A stretch of 33,657 bases of DNA from NCBI GenBank assembly GCA_027071075.1, contig JALSUU010000101.1, forward strand, positions 1 through 33,657, given 5' to 3'. Shown in pieces: positions 23,939-32,940 of the stretch (its first letter is position 1; each line of letters opens with the position of its first letter). The notes under the pieces were generated by a model, which did no database searches, was not told the origin of the DNA, and worked only from the letters and a program-made list of their open reading frames with translations. This stretch comes from Sulfurimonas sp. (GTDB lineage Bacteria; Campylobacterota; Campylobacteria; Campylobacterales; Sulfurimonadaceae). The position numbers were made by a program, and so were the translations under genes.

Positions 23939-24009
23939 TTATCTTCCATTGTAAATATATCATCTATTATAAATAAAGCATTTTTTTGCTTCACTAATAA
24001 TATATGGGT

Positions 24010-24084
24010 GGCAGGCGTAGGGGGACTCGAACCCGCAACACCCGGATTTGGAATCCGGTGCTCTACCATTGGAGCTATACGCCT
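24010..24084 (-). tRNA. tRNA-Trp (CCA anticodon, encoded 3' CCA)
   Basis: AGGCGTA...TACGCCT acceptor; anticodon arm CCGGA-TTCCAAA-TCCGG; T-loop TTCGAGT; ends GCCA. Confidence 0.97.
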
Positions 24085-24139
24085 GTATCTGTTAGTACGG
24101 TATCGGAAGTATACCTCAAGGGCACTTGGATTCCGATAC

Positions 24140-24191
24140 CTACGCTAACGCTTAGTTTTCTTCGGCAGAATGCCCATGCAACTAGTTGCAT
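24140..24191 (+). repeat. Structured dispersed repeat, copy C (rpmG-tRNA-Trp spacer)
   Basis: CTACGCTAACGCT-tagttttcttcggcagaatgccca-TGCAACTAGTTGCA. Preceded by a separate inverted repeat GGTATCGGAA (24099-24108) / TTCCGATACC (24131-24140). Confidence 0.8.
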
Positions 24192-24222
24192 TTCAAGAAA
24201 TCTAAATTAAAATGAAACTAAA

Positions 24223-24375
24223 TTACAGTTTCATCTCTTTATGTTCTGTGTGCTCACGACACCATTTACAATACTTGCGTACTGAAAATTTTTCTGTGTG
24301 AGTCTTTTTGTTTTTTGTTGTGTGATAGTTTCTTCTAGTACATTTCTCACAACCTAAGTGAATCGCTTCTCTCAT
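24223..24375 (-). CDS. rpmG: 50S ribosomal protein L33 (50 aa, absent from the ORF track)
   Basis: Manual translation MREAIHLGCEKCTRRNYHTTKNKKTHTEKFSVRKYCKWCREHTEHKEMKL*. Confidence 0.95.
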   Translation of the reverse strand: MREAIHLGCEKCTRRNYHTTKNKKTHTEKFSVRKYCKWCREHTEHKEMKL

Positions 24376-24397
24376 AGTAATTAACCTTTAGTGGTTA

Positions 24398-24420
24398 TCA
24401 AAAATTCGCAAAAGCGAATT
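24398..24420 (-). terminator. Putative intrinsic terminator/attenuator at the tuf stop codon
   Basis: Minus strand AATTCGC-TTTT-GCGAATT followed by TTT; the 5' arm overlaps the tuf TAA. Confidence 0.55.
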
Positions 24421-25618
24421 ATTTGACAATTGATGCAACAACACCAGCACCAACAGTTCTACCACCCTCACGGATAGCGAAGTTAGTACCTTCTTCCATT
24501 GCAATTGGGTGAATTAACTCAGCAGTAATACTTACATTATCACCTGGCATAACCATTTCTGTACCTTCTGGTAAAGTGATTGCACCTGTAACATCAGTAG
24601 TACGAACATAAAACTGAGGACGGTAACCGTTAAAGAATGGAGTATGACGTCCACCTTCATCTTTACTTAGAACATAAATTTCTGCAGTAAATGTTGTATG
24701 TGGAGTGATTGAACCTGGCTTACAAAGTACTTGACCACGCTCAACATCATCTTTACCAATACCACGAACTAGGATACCACAGTTATCACCTGCTTCACCT
24801 TGCTCCATCTCTTTACGGAACATTTCAACACCAGTAACAGTTGTAGTTTGAGTATCTTTGATACCTACGATTTCAACTGTTTCACCAACTTTGATAACAC
24901 CACGCTCGATACGACCAGTAACAACTGTTCCACGACCAGAGATTGAGAAAACATCTTCAACTGGCATTAAGAAATCTTTATCAGTTTCACGAGTAGGTTC
25001 AGGAATCCACTCATCAACAGTAGCCATTAAAGCAATAATTTTGTCTGACCACTCACCAAGAGTTCCAGTTTTTGCTTCTTCAAGAGCTTTAAGCGCTGAT
25101 CCAGCTGTGATTGGAGTGTCATCACCTGGGAAGTCGTACATGTCAAGAAGTTCACGAATTTCCATCTCTACTAATTCCATTAACTCTTCATCATCAACCA
25201 TATCTTCTTTGTTCATGAAAACAACGATGTACGGAACACCAACTTGCTTAGAAAGAAGAATATGCTCACGAGTTTGTGGCATTGGGCCATCCGCTGCAGA
25301 AACAACTAGAATAGCACCATCCATTTGTGCAGCACCTGTAATCATGTTCTTAACATAATCCGCGTGACCTGGACAATCAACATGTGCATAGTGACGCTTA
25401 TCAGTTTCATACTCTACATGTGAAGTAGCGATAGTAATACCACGCTCTCTCTCTTCTGGTGCATTATCAATTGCATCATAATCCATAAGCTCTGCATCGT
25501 TAGTTACTGCTAGTACTGCAGTAATTGCTGCTGTTAATGTTGTTTTACCGTGGTCAACATGACCGATAGTACCGATGTTAACATGCGGTTTATTACGTTC
25601 AAACTTTTCTTTTGCCAT
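24419..25618 (-). CDS. tuf: Elongation factor Tu
   Basis: [75 protein letters not shown]. Confidence 0.99.
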
Positions 25619-25697
25619 AGTGTTCTCCTACTTAATTTGTGAATTGAAATGGAATTATACCCAAAAATCATTCAATTATTGCTTAATTTAAACTTTA

Positions 25698-25772
25698 TGG
25701 AGCTCACGAGCGGATTTGAACCGCCGGCCTCTTCCTTACCAAGGAAGTGCTCTACCCCTGAGCCACGAGAGC
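25698..25772 (-). tRNA. tRNA-Thr (GGU anticodon, encoded CCA)
   Basis: Anticodon arm CTTCC-TTGGTAA-GGAAG; T-loop TTCAAAT; ends CTCCA. Confidence 0.95.
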
Positions 25773-25940
25773 ATTAGGCTTAAAAAAGCTCTTTAATGCA
25801 TAAGCAATAATTGAATAATTCTATAATACTACTAGTTTTTGTGATTAGATTTAAAGCTATACAGATATTTATATAAAATATTATATATGAAGTAATTTTT
25901 TGTAAGAATTATACTTCAGCTTCCAGAAGTTTTTCGTTTA

Positions 25941-26016
<76 letters not shown>

Positions 26017-26031
26017 ATTAAACTTTTAAAG

Positions 26032-26116
26032 TGGTGGGGAGAAGAGGAGTCGAACCTCTGAACCCATAGGGAGCAGATTTACAGTCTGCCGTCGTTGGCC
26101 ACTTGACTATCTCCCC
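26032..26116 (-). tRNA. tRNA-Tyr (GUA anticodon, encoded CCA)
   Basis: GGGGAGA...TCTCCCC acceptor; anticodon arm GCAGA-CTGTAAA-TCTGC; long variable arm. Confidence 0.97.
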
Positions 26117-26182
26117 ACTTTAACATAAAATAAAATTTTATCTTATCTGGTCTAACACTGTTTCTAATATATCGCATTCAGA

Positions 26183-26259
26183 TGGTGCCGACACGAGGAT
26201 TTGAACCCCGGGCCTGCTGATTACAAATCAGCTGCTCTAGCCAACTGAGCTATGTCGGC
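26183..26259 (-). tRNA. tRNA-Thr (UGU anticodon, encoded CCA)
   Basis: GCCGACA...TGTCGGC acceptor; anticodon arm GCTGA-TTTGTAA-TCAGC. Confidence 0.97.
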
Positions 26260-26315: not shown

Positions 26316-28235
26316 CTAAAAATTTATAAAATTTCCATCTTTTAAGATTTTAGCACTCCATTTTCCCCTATTTTCCTCTATTTCATCTACTATTCTTTTA
26401 AAGAAAGATGGTTTGATATGATTGATATAGAGAGATAAATTACTATTTAGCAAAGACTCCAGTTGTTTAAATAGAATTTTTGGGGTTAGGTGCTTACTCT
26501 CTCTTGCCAACTCTTCAAGGTCATTAGGAAAGGAGCACTCAACTACTATTGTTTTTATCTTTGTGTCTTTATTTACCTCTTCTTTTAAAGTATCAAGTGA
26601 ATATGTATCTGCTGTTATAAGTACAGATCCTGAATCTTTTGTATAAACATACCCACAACTTGCAACTGTATGATCTGTTAAAAATGCTCGAATAGATTCG
26701 CCATTCCCAATTTTATACTCCTTTCCTACCTCTACTTCTGTATAGGCAACAGCCATCTCATCCGAGAGGAGGAGTTTAATTTTAGAAAAATCTGGCCATA
26801 TTGTATTATTTAAAAAATTCTCTTTTATGGCTTTAATAGTTTCAGGGAGTCCAATAATATTTAAAGATTTTTTACGAAGATTAAAATAGTTATCTATGAT
26901 GTATGCAATATCTATTATATGATCTAAATGTGAATGTGTCATCCATATATTTTCTATATCTATAGACTCTATATTTAAAGGTTCCAATAAGTTTCCAGCA
27001 TCAATAACATTTTTATGATTGAGTAAAAAAGCACTTGTTCCATACCCTTTAGATTTTGTTCCGTATGCACCAAGAATTTTTATCTGCTGTGTTCTCTCTT
27101 CATCTACTTTATCAAGATAGATATCTTTAAAAGTTGCTCGTACTTCTTCTATTTTTTCAAGATTCTCAAAAAAGAGATCTATAAGTGCTGGATCAAAATG
27201 CTTCCCTCTCTCCTCTTTCAAGAGCGTAAATATACGCTCATCACTCCAAGCTTTTTTATAGACTCTATCGCTACCTAAAGCGTCAAATACATCTGCAATC
27301 GCTGTAATTCTTCCATAAATATGAATTTTTTCTCCACTGAGTCCATTTGGGTAGCCTGAACCATCCCATTTTTCATGATGTTCATAAGCAACTATAGCAG
27401 CAGCTTTTAGAAGTGGTCTTTCTGAATTTTTTATCATATTGTAGCCAAGTTCAGCATGAGTATTCATAATATGACGCTCATTTTCATCAAACCGACCAGG
27501 CTTATTTAAAATGCTATCTGCAATAGCTATTTTTCCTATATCGTGCATAGGACTCGCCTGTTTTAAAAGTTCAGCTTCTTCTGCATCAAGACCATAAGCA
27601 AGTGCTAAAATTTTAGAGTACTCAGCAACCCTTTTAACATGATTTCCAGTCTCTTTGCTTCTGCTCTCTCCAATAGAGCCCATAGTAAACACAACTTCTT
27701 TTTGTGTCTCTTCTATCTCTTGAGCAAGTTGTGCCGATATCAAGGTCTCAGCGGCATAGGTACTTGCAAGTGTTAAACGCTCCATATCTCTCGCATCAAA
27801 GTGCTCACTTGCACCTCTATGATTTATAACTTGAAATGCACCAATAATATTTTCTTCATAATCATACATAGGTATAACCATCATACTCTTTGTTTTATAT
27901 CCTGTTTGTTTATCAATCTCACAGTGAAAACGATCATCAAGATAAACATCATCAATAAGTTCACGCTCCCCACTATGGACAGAATCTCCAACAATACCAC
28001 AATCACTAGGAATTTCTATACGCTCTATTCCATGAGCGACCTTCGTCCATAGTGTATTTTTTTTCTCATTTACAATCCATATAGTACATCTATCAGCACT
28101 AGTAAGCGCCTTTCCCATCTTTGCAAGAACTTCTAAGATATCATCATAATCCTTGAGAGATGAAACCTCTGCTAAATGAATAAAGACTAGTTCAAGTATT
28201 TCGCTTGCACTCAAACTTCTTGCATGTTTTGCCAT
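26316..28235 (-). CDS. GAF + HD-GYP + C-terminal metallo-beta-lactamase-fold (class II cyclic-nucleotide PDE-like) fusion
   Basis: GAF-like N-terminus; HDIGKI and HHEKWDGSGYP; C-terminal THSHLDH and LITADTY. ORF opens at a GTG at 28241, but GGAG sits upstream of the ATG at 28235. Confidence 0.88.
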   Translation of the reverse strand: MAKHARSLSASEILELVFIHLAEVSSLKDYDDILEVLAKMGKALTSADRCTIWIVNEKKNTLWTKVAHGIERIEIPSDCGIVGDSVHSGERELIDDVYLDDRFHCEIDKQTGYKTKSMMVIPMYDYEENIIGAFQVINHRGASEHFDARDMERLTLASTYAAETLISAQLAQEIEETQKEVVFTMGSIGESRSKETGNHVKRVAEYSKILALAYGLDAEEAELLKQASPMHDIGKIAIADSILNKPGRFDENERHIMNTHAELGYNMIKNSERPLLKAAAIVAYEHHEKWDGSGYPNGLSGEKIHIYGRITAIADVFDALGSDRVYKKAWSDERIFTLLKEERGKHFDPALIDLFFENLEKIEEVRATFKDIYLDKVDEERTQQIKILGAYGTKSKGYGTSAFLLNHKNVIDAGNLLEPLNIESIDIENIWMTHSHLDHIIDIAYIIDNYFNLRKKSLNIIGLPETIKAIKENFLNNTIWPDFSKIKLLLSDEMAVAYTEVEVGKEYKIGNGESIRAFLTDHTVASCGYVYTKDSGSVLITADTYSLDTLKEEVNKDTKIKTIVVECSFPNDLEELARESKHLTPKILFKQLESLLNSNLSLYINHIKPSFFKRIVDEIEENRGKWSAKILKDGNFINF

Positions 28236-28363
28236 AAGCACTCCAGATTAATTTTCACTATTATACACAAACTATTTAAAAGGTCAAATTATCTTCATTT
28301 AATCTAATATCAACATCAATAGTGTTAAAATTAAGAATATGACTTAAATCGCAAAGGCTTATT

Positions 28364-29656
28364 ATGAGACTGGCTTTAATTTTTACACTCCTTCTTCCTT
28401 TTTACCTCATGGCACAGGATGCTAATAAGCTCAGTGAATATGATCAGGGTATAGCATATTATCAAGAGAATGATTTTCAAAAAAGTTATGCTATTTTTTC
28501 TAAAATTTACTTAGAGAATCTTTCTGATATAAACTTTAACTTCTACTTTGGTAGATCTGCTTACGAAACAGGACACTACGGGATGGCACTTGCTGCTTTT
28601 GAGCGCGTTGAGATGCAAGATGGAGCAAATCTACGAAATAAACTTGAAATGGCTAGAACATACTATATGCTCAAAATGTTTGAGGATTCTGAGAATGCTT
28701 TTAGAGAAGTTCTCGCAAATCCCAATATCCCAGAGAACATCAGAACAAACATAGAACTAGCGCTTTCTCGTGTTTCTAAAGTACAACAAACCTCTTTTAC
28801 TTATGCAAGAGCTATGATGGGAGTTTTGTATGACTCAAATGTCAATTATGGTTCAATAGGGGATTATAAGTATGGAGGGAGTGACCTTGCTAAGATTGAT
28901 GAACGCGCTGATATTGCTCTTGAAGCCTATGCAAATGCTGTCAATATTTATGATATTGGTGATAAAAATGGTTTTGCTATAAAAAATTCTCTTAATTTTT
29001 ATCTTAAAGAGTATCTCAAAGAAAAAGATTTTAATACTATGTATCTCGCCTATACTCCAAGTCTCCTTTATAAAGAAACAAAGTACACTGCTGAACTAGC
29101 CCTACAGATAGATACACTTCTTCTCAATCACAAAAGATATTTCCAAACACTTGCACTCATCCCTACTCTACACTATAATCACTCCACTACCCTCAATAGT
29201 TTAGTCGCACTAAAGTACCAGATGAAAAAATTTACACAATCATCCCTTGATGCCAATAGATATGAAGTATCCTATGGACTCCAAAAGATTCTTTCTCCTC
29301 GCTCTTATGTTCAAGGAAATATTTATTTCATAAACGAATCAAAGTTAGGTGGCGATGATATCTATGTAGATTTTACAGAGTACAAAACAAATATCTCTTA
29401 TGCAAATCAATTTTTCCCCGACTATGGAGCTGATTTTTTTGCGCAACTTAGATATAGAGGGTATAGTGACTACAGTAAAGGATTTAATTCTACTAGAAAA
29501 GATATAGGTGGCTTGCTTAATGCTAACTTTACAATGACACTACTGCCAACTCTTCAAGCAAACCTACGCACAAGTTATGAGTATGTAAACTCAAACCAAG
29601 GTCGTTTTACTTATGCAAAATATACTATTTTTGCTGGTATAACAAAAACATTTTAA
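28364..29656 (+). CDS. Outer-membrane TPR/beta-barrel protein, Slam/DUF560-like
   Basis: Signal peptide; TPR-like helices (ELARTYYMLKMFEDSENAFREVL); junction ALSRVSK...LYDSNVNYG; beta-rich C-terminus ending in Phe (TIFAGITKTF). Confidence 0.7.
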   Translation: MRLALIFTLLLPFYLMAQDANKLSEYDQGIAYYQENDFQKSYAIFSKIYLENLSDINFNFYFGRSAYETGHYGMALAAFERVEMQDGANLRNKLEMARTYYMLKMFEDSENAFREVLANPNIPENIRTNIELALSRVSKVQQTSFTYARAMMGVLYDSNVNYGSIGDYKYGGSDLAKIDERADIALEAYANAVNIYDIGDKNGFAIKNSLNFYLKEYLKEKDFNTMYLAYTPSLLYKETKYTAELALQIDTLLLNHKRYFQTLALIPTLHYNHSTTLNSLVALKYQMKKFTQSSLDANRYEVSYGLQKILSPRSYVQGNIYFINESKLGGDDIYVDFTEYKTNISYANQFFPDYGADFFAQLRYRGYSDYSKGFNSTRKDIGGLLNANFTMTLLPTLQANLRTSYEYVNSNQGRFTYAKYTIFAGITKTF

Positions 29657-29667
29657 GGAGTCCTAAA

Positions 29668-30792
29668 ATGAACAGAATAACTTTTATACTTATTACCTTT
29701 CTCATCACAACTACAAATCTTTTTGCAAGTTTTGCTGGAACTATTACAGCTTCTAAAGGTAATGCCTCAGTTCTGAGAGAGGGTAACTCACAAAAAGTAC
29801 ACATTGGTCTTAAACTGCAAACGAAGGATCATATTCTCACTAAAGGTGATGCAAAAGTACAAATTATATTTAAAGATGAGACTATTATTACCGTTGGAAA
29901 AAATAGTAACTTCTCGATAGAAGAGTTTCTTTTTGATGATGAAAATGAACCCTCTGCTAAGTTTGGTATGTTTGGTGGGGCTATGCGTGCTATCACTGGA
30001 AAGATTGGTAAAATCGCTCCACAAAAGTTTAGTGTCACTACAAAAACTGCTACTATAGGTATCAGAGGTACTAACTTTACAATAGCGACCAACGATGCAG
30101 GAAGATTAGAAGCCTATTGTACTTATGGGGAGATTAGTGTTAGTGTAAATGGAGAAGCTTATAGTGTAAAGCAAGGCTTCTTTGCAGTGCTCAATGGGAA
30201 TAATGGTGTAGAGATCAAGGCATTCACTCCTCAAGAGTTAAAATCTATGCAAGAGCATAAATTTGGAGTCAGTCAAAATAAAAACTCTCAAGTATCAAAA
30301 GGGGGAGATGTAGTTGTAAATGAGAGTAACGATAAGCAACTCGATCTTACTATAGATGATAAAACGGAGGTTACTATTAAGGATGTCACCCAAGAGAGTT
30401 CCGATACACTCTTTAAAGCGCGAACACTTGATTCTACTATTGCAGGCTACTCTATGGAGGATGCCACCTATCTCGGTAATTATACTATGTCTGAGAATCA
30501 CTCCATTTTAGACAACTCAGGAGATACAAAACTCTCGATTAATTTTTCAAAAGACACAGCACTCTTAGAGGTTGGAAGTTTTCAAAATGAATCTTCAACT
30601 TTCCAATACCAGTTTGAAAATGTAAATAAAAGTCAAGTCAACGGCAATGAAATTAATGGTGGTTTAGGGAGTGCTACTATGAACTTTTATGGTCCTGCTG
30701 GAAAAACAGTAACAGGGGATTTTATACATGATACTCAAGCAGAGGTATCAAGAGGTACATACTCTGTTCAAACATTTGAGAATCTCCATTAA
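29668..30792 (+). CDS. Exported FecR-domain protein with possible C-terminal TbpB-like beta-barrel
   Basis: Signal peptide to LFA|S; FecR-like ITVGKNSNFSIEEFLFD...TKTATIGIRGTNF; C-terminal GGLGSATMNFYGPAGKTVTGDF. Confidence 0.8.
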   Translation: MNRITFILITFLITTTNLFASFAGTITASKGNASVLREGNSQKVHIGLKLQTKDHILTKGDAKVQIIFKDETIITVGKNSNFSIEEFLFDDENEPSAKFGMFGGAMRAITGKIGKIAPQKFSVTTKTATIGIRGTNFTIATNDAGRLEAYCTYGEISVSVNGEAYSVKQGFFAVLNGNNGVEIKAFTPQELKSMQEHKFGVSQNKNSQVSKGGDVVVNESNDKQLDLTIDDKTEVTIKDVTQESSDTLFKARTLDSTIAGYSMEDATYLGNYTMSENHSILDNSGDTKLSINFSKDTALLEVGSFQNESSTFQYQFENVNKSQVNGNEINGGLGSATMNFYGPAGKTVTGDFIHDTQAEVSRGTYSVQTFENLH

Positions 30793-30795
30793 ATC

Positions 30796-32940
30796 ATGAA
30801 AGGAAAAAACAGGGTACTGCTGCTTCTTTTTGTACTCATATCTCTTAGTGTAACATCTGCTTACATTTTCATACCCAATCAGTTTCAATCTCTTGATAGT
30901 AGAATACGAGATTTTTACTTCTACTTTCGAGGTGAAGAGAAGACTAGTGATAATATTGTCATCGTTGATATTGATGAGAAGAGTATTAAAGTACTTGGTC
31001 AATGGCCTTGGGAGCGGGACAAAATTGCTCATATATTACAGAACCTTTCAAAACATGGTGCTGGAATAATCGGCTTAGATATTGTTTTTTCAGAGCAAGA
31101 TAAAACTTCTCCCACCCTTTTTGCCAAACAGTTTGGGGTAGACCCCGCAACAGCAAAAGATTATGATAAGATTTTAGCACAGACAATAGCACAAACCCCA
31201 ACTATTTTAGGATACCAATTTGTCCTAGAAAATAGCGAGCACAATGGAGAAGAAGCACCGCAAATTCCAGCGATTATCATTGAAAAGCATAAACAAAAAC
31301 AGGAGTTTCTACCCGTAGCACAGGGGGTAATGCCAAACCTTAAAATCATTCAAGATGCAGGATATTCAAGTGGTTATATGAACAATATTCCCGATGAAGC
31401 AGGAATGATACGAAGTGTCCCTTTGATTATAAAGTATGAAGATGAACTCTATACCTCTTTAGCCCTTGAGATGTATAGAATTGCATTAGGTGCAAAAAAA
31501 ATCTCTCTCAATTATAGCAATGTTGGTGTTGAAGAGTTAAAAATCAAAAAAACAATTATTCCGACAGATAGATTTGCAAAACTCTACATCAACTTCAGAG
31601 GTCCCGCAAAAAGTTACAAATATATATCGGCGAGTGATGTTTACGATAACAATATCTCTGATGCAGATGTAATGGGTAAGTTTGTTCTTATGGGAACCTC
31701 TGCCTATGGTTTAATGGATTTGCGTTCTACTCCTATGGATAGTGTTATTGCAGGAGTGGAAGTGCATGCCAATGTAATAGACAACCTTTTAAATGGCGAT
31801 ATGTTAGTAAAATCTGTTTTTGAAGAACCTATCAATATAGCAATTATTATCTTCACTACTTTTATAGTTGTTCTTCTTTACTCTAGGCTTCCTATAGCTT
31901 ATCTAGTAGTGGCTTACACTCTCTCTTTATATCTTATGTTCTATCTCAATTATTATTTACTCTTTAGTGAACACATGATACTCAACTCAATCTTTCCTCT
32001 GATGTCAATGGTACTCTCTCTCATCGCTACACTTGGAGTCAAGTATATTTTTGAGTTTCGCCAAAAAGAGATAGTCAAAAAAAGCTTCTCTAAAAAAGTT
32101 TCTAAACAAGTTATGGAAGATTTACTTTTACACCCGCAAGATACAAATCTCAGTGCAAAGGAGGTTGAGACTACTATATACTTCTCAGATATAAGAAGTT
32201 TTACTACCATCTCAGAAAATTTGCACTCCCCAAAAAGAATTACTGAGTTTTTAAACTTTTATATGAATAGTATGGTTATATCAATAGAGAACAACCAAGG
32301 AACCATCGACAAGTTTATAGGGGATGCTATTATGGCATACTGGAATGCCCCACTTGAAGTCAAAAACCACGCAGATAAAGCTGTTTTAACTGCCCTACAT
32401 CAAGTAGAGCAGAGAGATCTTCTTAATATCACTATTCATAAAAACTTTGGCTTTGATGTTGATTATGGTATTGGGATAAATACGGGTGATGTTGTTGTTG
32501 GAGAGATTGGTTCACAAGGGCGTTCTGACTATACTATCATAGGAGATGCAGTAAACCTTGCATCAAGACTAGAGGGAATGTGTAAACCCTATAAAGTGCG
32601 TTTAGTTATCTCAGAGTTCACAAAAGAACAACTCACACAAACCTATGTTACACAACTACTAGACATTGTAAAGGTAAAGGGAAAACATGAGCCTGTTAAA
32701 ATCTACGAGGTATTAAGTGTGGGTAGTGCCTCTAGTGAAAAACAAGAAGAACTTGATCAGTATCACACTGCCCATCAACTCTACAAAGAAGCAAATTTTG
32801 AAGAGGCAAAACAAACATTTAAGAAACTTTATGAAAAATATGATAAATACCTCTACAAGCTCTATATAGAACGCTGTGAGCACCTTATCAAAAGTGATAT
32901 AAAAGAGTTTGATGGGGTTTTTGAATACACCACTAAATAA
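30796..32940 (+). CDS. CHASE2-domain class III adenylate/guanylate cyclase (predicted adenylate)
   Basis: CHASE2-like N-terminus (IVDIDEKSIKVLGQWPWERDKIA...GLDIVFSE), TM segments before about residue 420, cyclase core YFSDIRSFT, DKFIGDAIMAYWNAP, SDYTIIGDAVNLASRLEG. Confidence 0.93.
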   Translation: MKGKNRVLLLLFVLISLSVTSAYIFIPNQFQSLDSRIRDFYFYFRGEEKTSDNIVIVDIDEKSIKVLGQWPWERDKIAHILQNLSKHGAGIIGLDIVFSEQDKTSPTLFAKQFGVDPATAKDYDKILAQTIAQTPTILGYQFVLENSEHNGEEAPQIPAIIIEKHKQKQEFLPVAQGVMPNLKIIQDAGYSSGYMNNIPDEAGMIRSVPLIIKYEDELYTSLALEMYRIALGAKKISLNYSNVGVEELKIKKTIIPTDRFAKLYINFRGPAKSYKYISASDVYDNNISDADVMGKFVLMGTSAYGLMDLRSTPMDSVIAGVEVHANVIDNLLNGDMLVKSVFEEPINIAIIIFTTFIVVLLYSRLPIAYLVVAYTLSLYLMFYLNYYLLFSEHMILNSIFPLMSMVLSLIATLGVKYIFEFRQKEIVKKSFSKKVSKQVMEDLLLHPQDTNLSAKEVETTIYFSDIRSFTTISENLHSPKRITEFLNFYMNSMVISIENNQGTIDKFIGDAIMAYWNAPLEVKNHADKAVLTALHQVEQRDLLNITIHKNFGFDVDYGIGINTGDVVVGEIGSQGRSDYTIIGDAVNLASRLEGMCKPYKVRLVISEFTKEQLTQTYVTQLLDIVKVKGKHEPVKIYEVLSVGSASSEKQEELDQYHTAHQLYKEANFEEAKQTFKKLYEKYDKYLYKLYIERCEHLIKSDIKEFDGVFEYTTK

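Follow-up and report, generated by a model that had tools for sequence, protein, structure and literature searches.

What does a bacterium do with a single protein that joins a GAF sensor to an HD-GYP domain and to a domain of metallo-beta-lactamase (MBL) fold, and which nucleotide second messengers would such a protein degrade? The question is raised by an open reading frame of Sulfurimonas sp. (contig JALSUU010000101.1), which lies in the stretch of 33,657 nucleotides that was analysed here and that we call the window (Table 1). The original prediction had described a 639-residue frame with a GAF domain, an intact HD-GYP domain and a C-terminal MBL-fold domain, and this architecture holds: the Pfam matches are there, as are all the motifs that had been named, at residues 231-236 (HDIGKI), 286-296 (HHEKWDGSGYP), 433-439 (THSHLDH) and 540-545 (ITADTY). 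The frame starts with an ATG at 28235, preceded by GGAG 6-9 nt upstream, and an in-frame GTG lies two codons upstream of that ATG. Since 14 of the best 80 related loci, a single-cell genome included, have this fusion too, it is neither a chance event nor an assembly join; aligned fusions share 62-76% identity. A model of the full-length protein was poor (pTM 0.41, with a low-confidence segment at residues 373-405 in the region of the HD-GYP/PDE linker) and is too weak to be read for domain contacts. The fusion gene also has tuf and several tRNA genes (Trp, Thr, Gly, Tyr, Thr; window 24009-26259) as neighbours; loci of the Sulfurimonadaceae retain a neighbour of the size of tuf, and the tRNA-Thr gene at 26183-26259 appears to encode its own CCA end.

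Table 1. Features of the fusion gene and of the divergent cluster beside it, in window coordinates.
Feature	Position	Strand	Evidence
Fusion gene, GAF / HD-GYP / class II cyclic-nucleotide PDE, 639 aa	26316..28235	-	ORF and Pfam
Promoter-like TTGACC-16-TATAAT, 5' of the fusion gene	28260..28287	-	11/12 consensus matches; consensus match only
GAF sensor domain, residues 29-163	27747..28151	-	PF01590, 2.6e-12 (Pfam)
HD-GYP catalytic domain, HD_5 residues 191-351, GYP motif	27183..27668	-	PF13487, 5.5e-33
Short variable HD-GYP-to-PDE linker, residues 371-384	27084..27125	-	variable alignment columns
Class II cyclic-nucleotide PDE domain, MBL fold, residues 385-639	26319..27083	-	PF02112, 60.8 bits, domain alone
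HSHLDH metal motif, residues 434-439	26919..26936	-	invariant in 17 fusions
ITADTY, bridging Asp ligand D543	26601..26618	-	invariant
NHIKP, last His ligand H606	26409..26423	-	H and KP invariant
TPR / beta-barrel-like protein, first in divergent cluster	28364..29656	+	weak TPR matches below Pfam cut-off
FecR-domain protein	29668..30792	+	PF04773, 7.9e-12
CHASE2 sensor and class III nucleotidyl cyclase, predicted cAMP source	30796..32940	+	PF05226, 2.5e-57; PF00211, 8.1e-22

By family, the C-terminal domain is most likely a class II cyclic-nucleotide phosphodiesterase (PDE2), with cAMP, and possibly cGMP, as its predicted substrate. PF02112 (PDEase_II) spans residues 426-611 of the whole protein at 57.1 bits (2.2e-15, cut-off 23.7) and is the top-scoring MBL model, above Lactamase_B_2 (27.5-30.3 bits) and Lactamase_B (24.1 bits), so that a generic Lactamase_B identity falls away; the same family matches 23 of 23 aligned members. 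The top PDB match by phmmer is yeast PDE1 (4ojv), in which GLPHTIDVLQKHVFNDLIWPDL aligns to GLPETIKAIKENFLNNTIWPDF of the fusion and with which the domain has a GLPxTI...IWPDF stretch in common. When the AlphaFold2 model of the domain (pLDDT 95.8, pTM 0.93) was searched with Foldseek, yeast PDE1 again came first, above YhfI, RNase Z and Apyc1. Yeast PDE1, a class II cAMP/cGMP phosphodiesterase of PF02112, thus has HxHLDH, GLPxTI...IWPD, the ECS element and a complete set of ligands in common with the bacterial domain, which is, however, about 100 residues shorter and joined to GAF/HD-GYP. The residues that follow HxHLDH (HSHLDHIIDIAYI) depart from what we take to be the strict PROSITE-type class II signature; the yeast PDE1 alignment runs through this region.

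All seven MBL ligands (H434, H436, D438, H439, H522, D543 and H606) are present and invariant in 17 fusions. Across 23 domains (40-63% identity to that of the window), H50, H52, H55, H138, D159 and H222 in domain numbering are invariant, and D54 nearly so, one locus (L022) reading HSHAEH. FDP-type di-iron MBL proteins carry HxExDH; the motif here is HxHxDH, which removes a sensor of that type from consideration. In a tree built from PDE2 domains, RNase Z proteins of the same order and one secreted MBL protein, the three groups separate, the 21 PDE2 domains and 19 RNase Z proteins forming distinct clades (support 99/98 and 98/98). An incomplete ligand set, or clustering with RNase Z, had been named in advance as evidence against a class II assignment; neither occurred, and together with the PF02112 score and the yeast PDE1 fold match these results uphold the reading of the domain as class II PDE-like. 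MBL phosphodiesterases of a similar kind that have been assayed prefer cAMP and cGMP, or cleave cyclic mononucleotides broadly (PMC9117128; PMC9293780). Among these, Rv1339, YhfI and Apyc1 likewise combine the MBL fold and HxHxDH with cyclic mononucleotide substrates, but they belong to the PF12706/Apyc1 branch, and a link to HD-GYP is not reported in either paper.

The remainder of the protein resembles a characterised enzyme. Residues 14-371 align full length (338 bits over 358 residues) to PmGH of Persephonella marina (PDB 4mcw), a GAF/HD-GYP dimer that converts c-di-GMP to GMP (PMC4159591), and the layout of GAF, long helix and HD-GYP is the same, although PmGH is without a class II PDE domain. 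The eight PmGH metal ligands (E185, H189, H221, D222, H250, H276, H277 and D305; PMC4159591) have their counterparts in E195, H199, H231, D232, H260, H286, H287 and D315, all eight invariant in 17 fusions, and the HD-GYP domain is in this sense as intact as had been proposed; it carries the E-T-G subgroup signature that has been tied to a trinuclear centre (PMC4159591). Further residues essential in PmGH are D183, K225 and D308 (PMC4159591). The last two are represented by K235 and D318, and the Arg/Lys contacts to the substrate occur as well; in place of Asp183, whose replacement by Ala inactivates PmGH (PMC4159591), the window protein has Ser193, and all aligned fusions have Ser. In the same alignment, Ser is also found at this place in the 3'3'-cGAMP phosphodiesterase V-cGAP3 (5z7c), which suggests that an HD-GYP domain with Ser193 may be active, and that the preferred dinucleotide of the predicted site could be 3'3'-cGAMP. 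The genome yields profile matches to 34 GGDEF and 13 HD-GYP domains; c-di-GMP is thus likely to be made, and the fusion would be one of several candidate c-di-GMP phosphodiesterases. The GAF domain resembles those of PmGH and of the adenylate cyclase 1ykd. Its sequence (NHRGASEHFDARDM) does not match the cAMP-binding motif NKFDE (N-K-x(n)-F-x3-D-E), which is complete only in three of eight fusions of the opposite order (PDE-HD) and in two separate long HD-GYP genes; cAMP sensing by the GAF domain of the window was therefore set aside.

A putative source for the predicted cAMP substrate is encoded next door. Genes for a TPR/barrel protein, a FecR-domain protein and a CHASE2-class III cyclase lie 122 bp from the fusion gene and diverge from it, and homologues of the TPR/barrel gene hold the same place in L058, L077 and L084. 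In the cyclase, the two metal Asp residues and the Asn-Arg pair are present, together with a Lys/Thr specificity pair that recurs in 29 of 29 aligned cyclases from related loci. In class III cyclases this Lys/Thr pair is of the adenylate-cyclase type, from which we infer adenylate specificity. A cluster of CHASE2-adenylate cyclase, cAMP-PDE, FecR and TPR genes has been reported in Campylobacterota (mBio 2022; PMC9239204), and the same four-gene set is complete in the window (26316-32940), the TPR match being below cut-off; in the main text of that report, fusion or linkage of the PDE to HD-GYP, as seen in the window protein, is not mentioned. Elsewhere the arrangement is tighter: in L034, FecR, cyclase, GAF/HD-GYP and PDE2 genes are contiguous or overlapping on one strand, as one operon, and in L049 the cyclase gene ends 10 nt ahead of the fusion gene.

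This association extends beyond the window. Among 299 genomes of the order, a PF00211 cyclase is found in 87 of the 102 with PDE2 (none was detected in the other 15) vs 8 of the 197 without it (Fisher p about 2e-49, uncorrected for shared ancestry), and within the genus the cyclase is likewise absent from all seven sampled genomes that lack PDE2. At 62 of 103 PDE2 places a cyclase lies within 6 kb, in 57 of the 62 on the same strand. On these sequence comparisons, pairing with the cyclase is conserved. A receptor of CRP type, considered as a tracker of the module, was uninformative, as PF00027 occurs in 274 of the 299 genomes. PDE2 can also stand apart from HD-GYP: it adjoins a cyclase without an adjacent HD-GYP gene in four loci (L075, L079, L092 and L123), and several congeners have a lone PDE2 adjoining tuf, with neither HD-GYP nor a cyclase nearby, which indicates that the two activities are separable and their pairing favoured rather than obligatory. 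Tandem PDE2 pairs were seen in G014, G047, G100 and G124 (L051:5009-6552, L080:1138-2737), in some of which a cyclase adjoins.

How common the fusion is had been posed as a question with the original prediction, and a scan of GTDB species genomes was run that found at least 574 stretches with relatives, of which the best 80 were kept as named loci; these were the most similar and do not sample the relatives at random, many come from metagenome assemblies, and apparent gene splits in L014, L054 and L061 are possibly sequencing errors. Within the best 80, 14 have the HD-PDE fusion of the window and eight the PDE-HD fusion, while a separate HD-GYP gene is directly adjacent in 12 and within 4 kb in 10. 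In 22 of 22 cases the separate HD-GYP gene shares its strand with PDE2 (p about 5e-7 if independent), and the loci concerned belong to Campylobacterota, Aquificota, Nitrospirota, Myxococcota and Pseudomonadota. Judged by length, the 102 tabulated PDE2 frames comprise five of 640-663 aa (the layout of the window), 54 of 740-830 aa, the size of the PDE2-first fusion (eight of them confirmed by domain search), and 42 of about 260-311 aa. The HD-GYP subtypes differ as well, being compact and E-T-G in the fusion of the window and Y-T-G, with about 100 inserted residues, in the PDE-HD fusions, and in L184 (L184:1-1815, G359) PDE2 is followed by GAF and a compact E-T-G HD-GYP, with a divergent FecR-like gene, assigned by eye, adjoining the fusion. 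Domain order and signature thus point to at least three fused layouts, in both orders: GAF-HDGYP-PDE2, PDE2-GAF-HDGYP with Y-T-G and PDE2-GAF-HDGYP with E-T-G. In the tree, the layout of the window sits in a single clade centred on Sulfurimonas, around the base of which branch relatives with adjacent genes; separations or losses have followed several times.

Several of these loci have peculiarities of their own. In three (L034:4468-6412, L067:3741-5622 and L070:4881-6768) where HD-GYP and PDE2 are separate, the two genes are read in different frames and share about 30-35 nt, an overlap that could allow translational coupling or a frameshift product. In betaproteobacteria-like loci (L096:6773-9136, L104:6820-9207) a GAF/MshEN/T2SSE ATPase gene sits between PDE2 and HD-GYP; type II secretion ATPases are a reported class of c-di-GMP receptor (PMC4624772), with which a c-di-GMP output would fit, and the ATPase is a possible c-di-GMP effector of the module. 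The gammaproteobacterium Thiomicrospira sp. WB1 (L089:3814-8409) has a cyclase and a PDE-HD fusion that lie among Campylobacterota sequences in the tree, a position that suggests horizontal transfer. Another HD-GYP gene, which includes a membrane segment resembling YgaP, stands beside a second MBL gene in the genome of the window (L135:2338-4669, contig C82 of G000) and in a congener (L136:4160-6102, G016), the two genes overlapping by 4 nt in the latter; this MBL protein has an apparent signal peptide, no PF02112 match and a clade of its own.

Three other accounts of the protein have to be weighed. In one, PDE2 alone is catalytic, and GAF/HD-GYP forms a regulatory dimer that binds c-di-GMP or another ligand and steers cAMP breakdown. 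Such regulation would yield fusion and operon coupling as well, and the Ser in place of the Asp183 that PmGH needs speaks for it; yet the eight metal ligands, the Lys225 and Asp308 equivalents, GYP and the Arg/Lys contacts are all there, some metal ligands are usually lost in a binding-only domain while here they are invariant in 17 fusions, and in homologous fusions the HD-GYP part is better conserved (76-80%) than the PDE2 part (51-61%). We regard this account as unlikely. We give somewhat less credence still to a second, in which the MBL domain acts on pGpG released by HD-GYP, on 2',3'-cyclic nucleotides or on 3'3'-cGAMP. PmGH-like HD-GYP enzymes reach GMP unaided (PMC4159591), the closest relatives are PF02112 and yeast PDE1, and PDE2 tracks the class III cyclase over the 299 genomes and adjoins it even where no HD-GYP gene is adjacent, against which stand the adjacency to HD-GYP, which suits a two-step pathway, the varied specificity of MBL phosphodiesterases (PMC9117128) and the presence, in the same genome, of another HD-GYP gene that adjoins an MBL gene of a different kind.

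The third account, in which the C-terminal domain would be a tRNase Z or another generic MBL nuclease, is highly improbable. The 41 bits that TIGR02651 (RNase Z) gives for it compare with a cut-off of 293, and the closeness in fold of RNase Z structures is set against the separate clades of the tree. In its favour, no canonical RNase Z was found in the whole genome of the window (G000). Some congeners have one; two of these (G016 and G076) encode PDE2 alongside an RNase Z of nearly full score (280-282 bits), and PDE2 is missing from two thirds of the order. On score, tree and coexistence together, an RNase Z identity was rejected.

We therefore return to the fusion as a bifunctional cytoplasmic phosphodiesterase, whose class II domain is predicted to hydrolyse cAMP and whose HD-GYP domain is predicted to hydrolyse c-di-GMP, as the account that is probably correct; by comparison with PmGH and yeast PDE1 both active sites appear complete, and the account gains further strength from the cyclase next door, from conservation of the operon and from the recurrence of the fusion. 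The PDE2 domain would reset the cAMP, possibly also the cGMP, that the CHASE2-adenylate cyclase of the divergent cluster produces, and the HD-GYP domain would lower c-di-GMP at the same place. The GAF domain and long helix probably hold the dimer together, as in PmGH, and would carry the regulatory input. The protein would thus switch off the cAMP signal that comes from an envelope-sensing module of FecR and CHASE2, and would keep that module tied to the local level of c-di-GMP. In this proposal we infer both catalytic activities, control by the GAF domain and the physiological coupling. That PDE2 and HD-GYP make up a widespread and so far unnamed signalling unit, in which cAMP and c-di-GMP are removed jointly by a single protein or complex that is attached to a CHASE2-adenylate cyclase, is a wider proposal that we advance tentatively, at somewhat less than even confidence; the occurrence of at least three fusion layouts suggests direct allosteric coupling of the two breakdown reactions.

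The domains and the gene cluster are already known, and what is new is the PDE2/HD-GYP fusion and its recurrence; no description of an HD-GYP/class II PDE fusion was found in the open-access literature searched. A known parallel is Bd1971, which also joins cAMP and c-di-GMP signalling in one protein, but there a CRP-like domain binds cAMP and the EAL domain hydrolyses c-di-GMP only (PMC6717892), while in the fusion both messengers are predicted substrates. If both are indeed degraded by one protein beside a cyclase, the fusion would constitute a direct, hard-wired link between two messenger systems. Usually, transcription factors connect cAMP and c-di-GMP, or one messenger senses the other. 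Bacterial class II PDEs are poorly characterised, and the fusion gives them a context; because fusions and operons with this pairing turn up repeatedly in several phyla, the link would be testable with simple enzymes.
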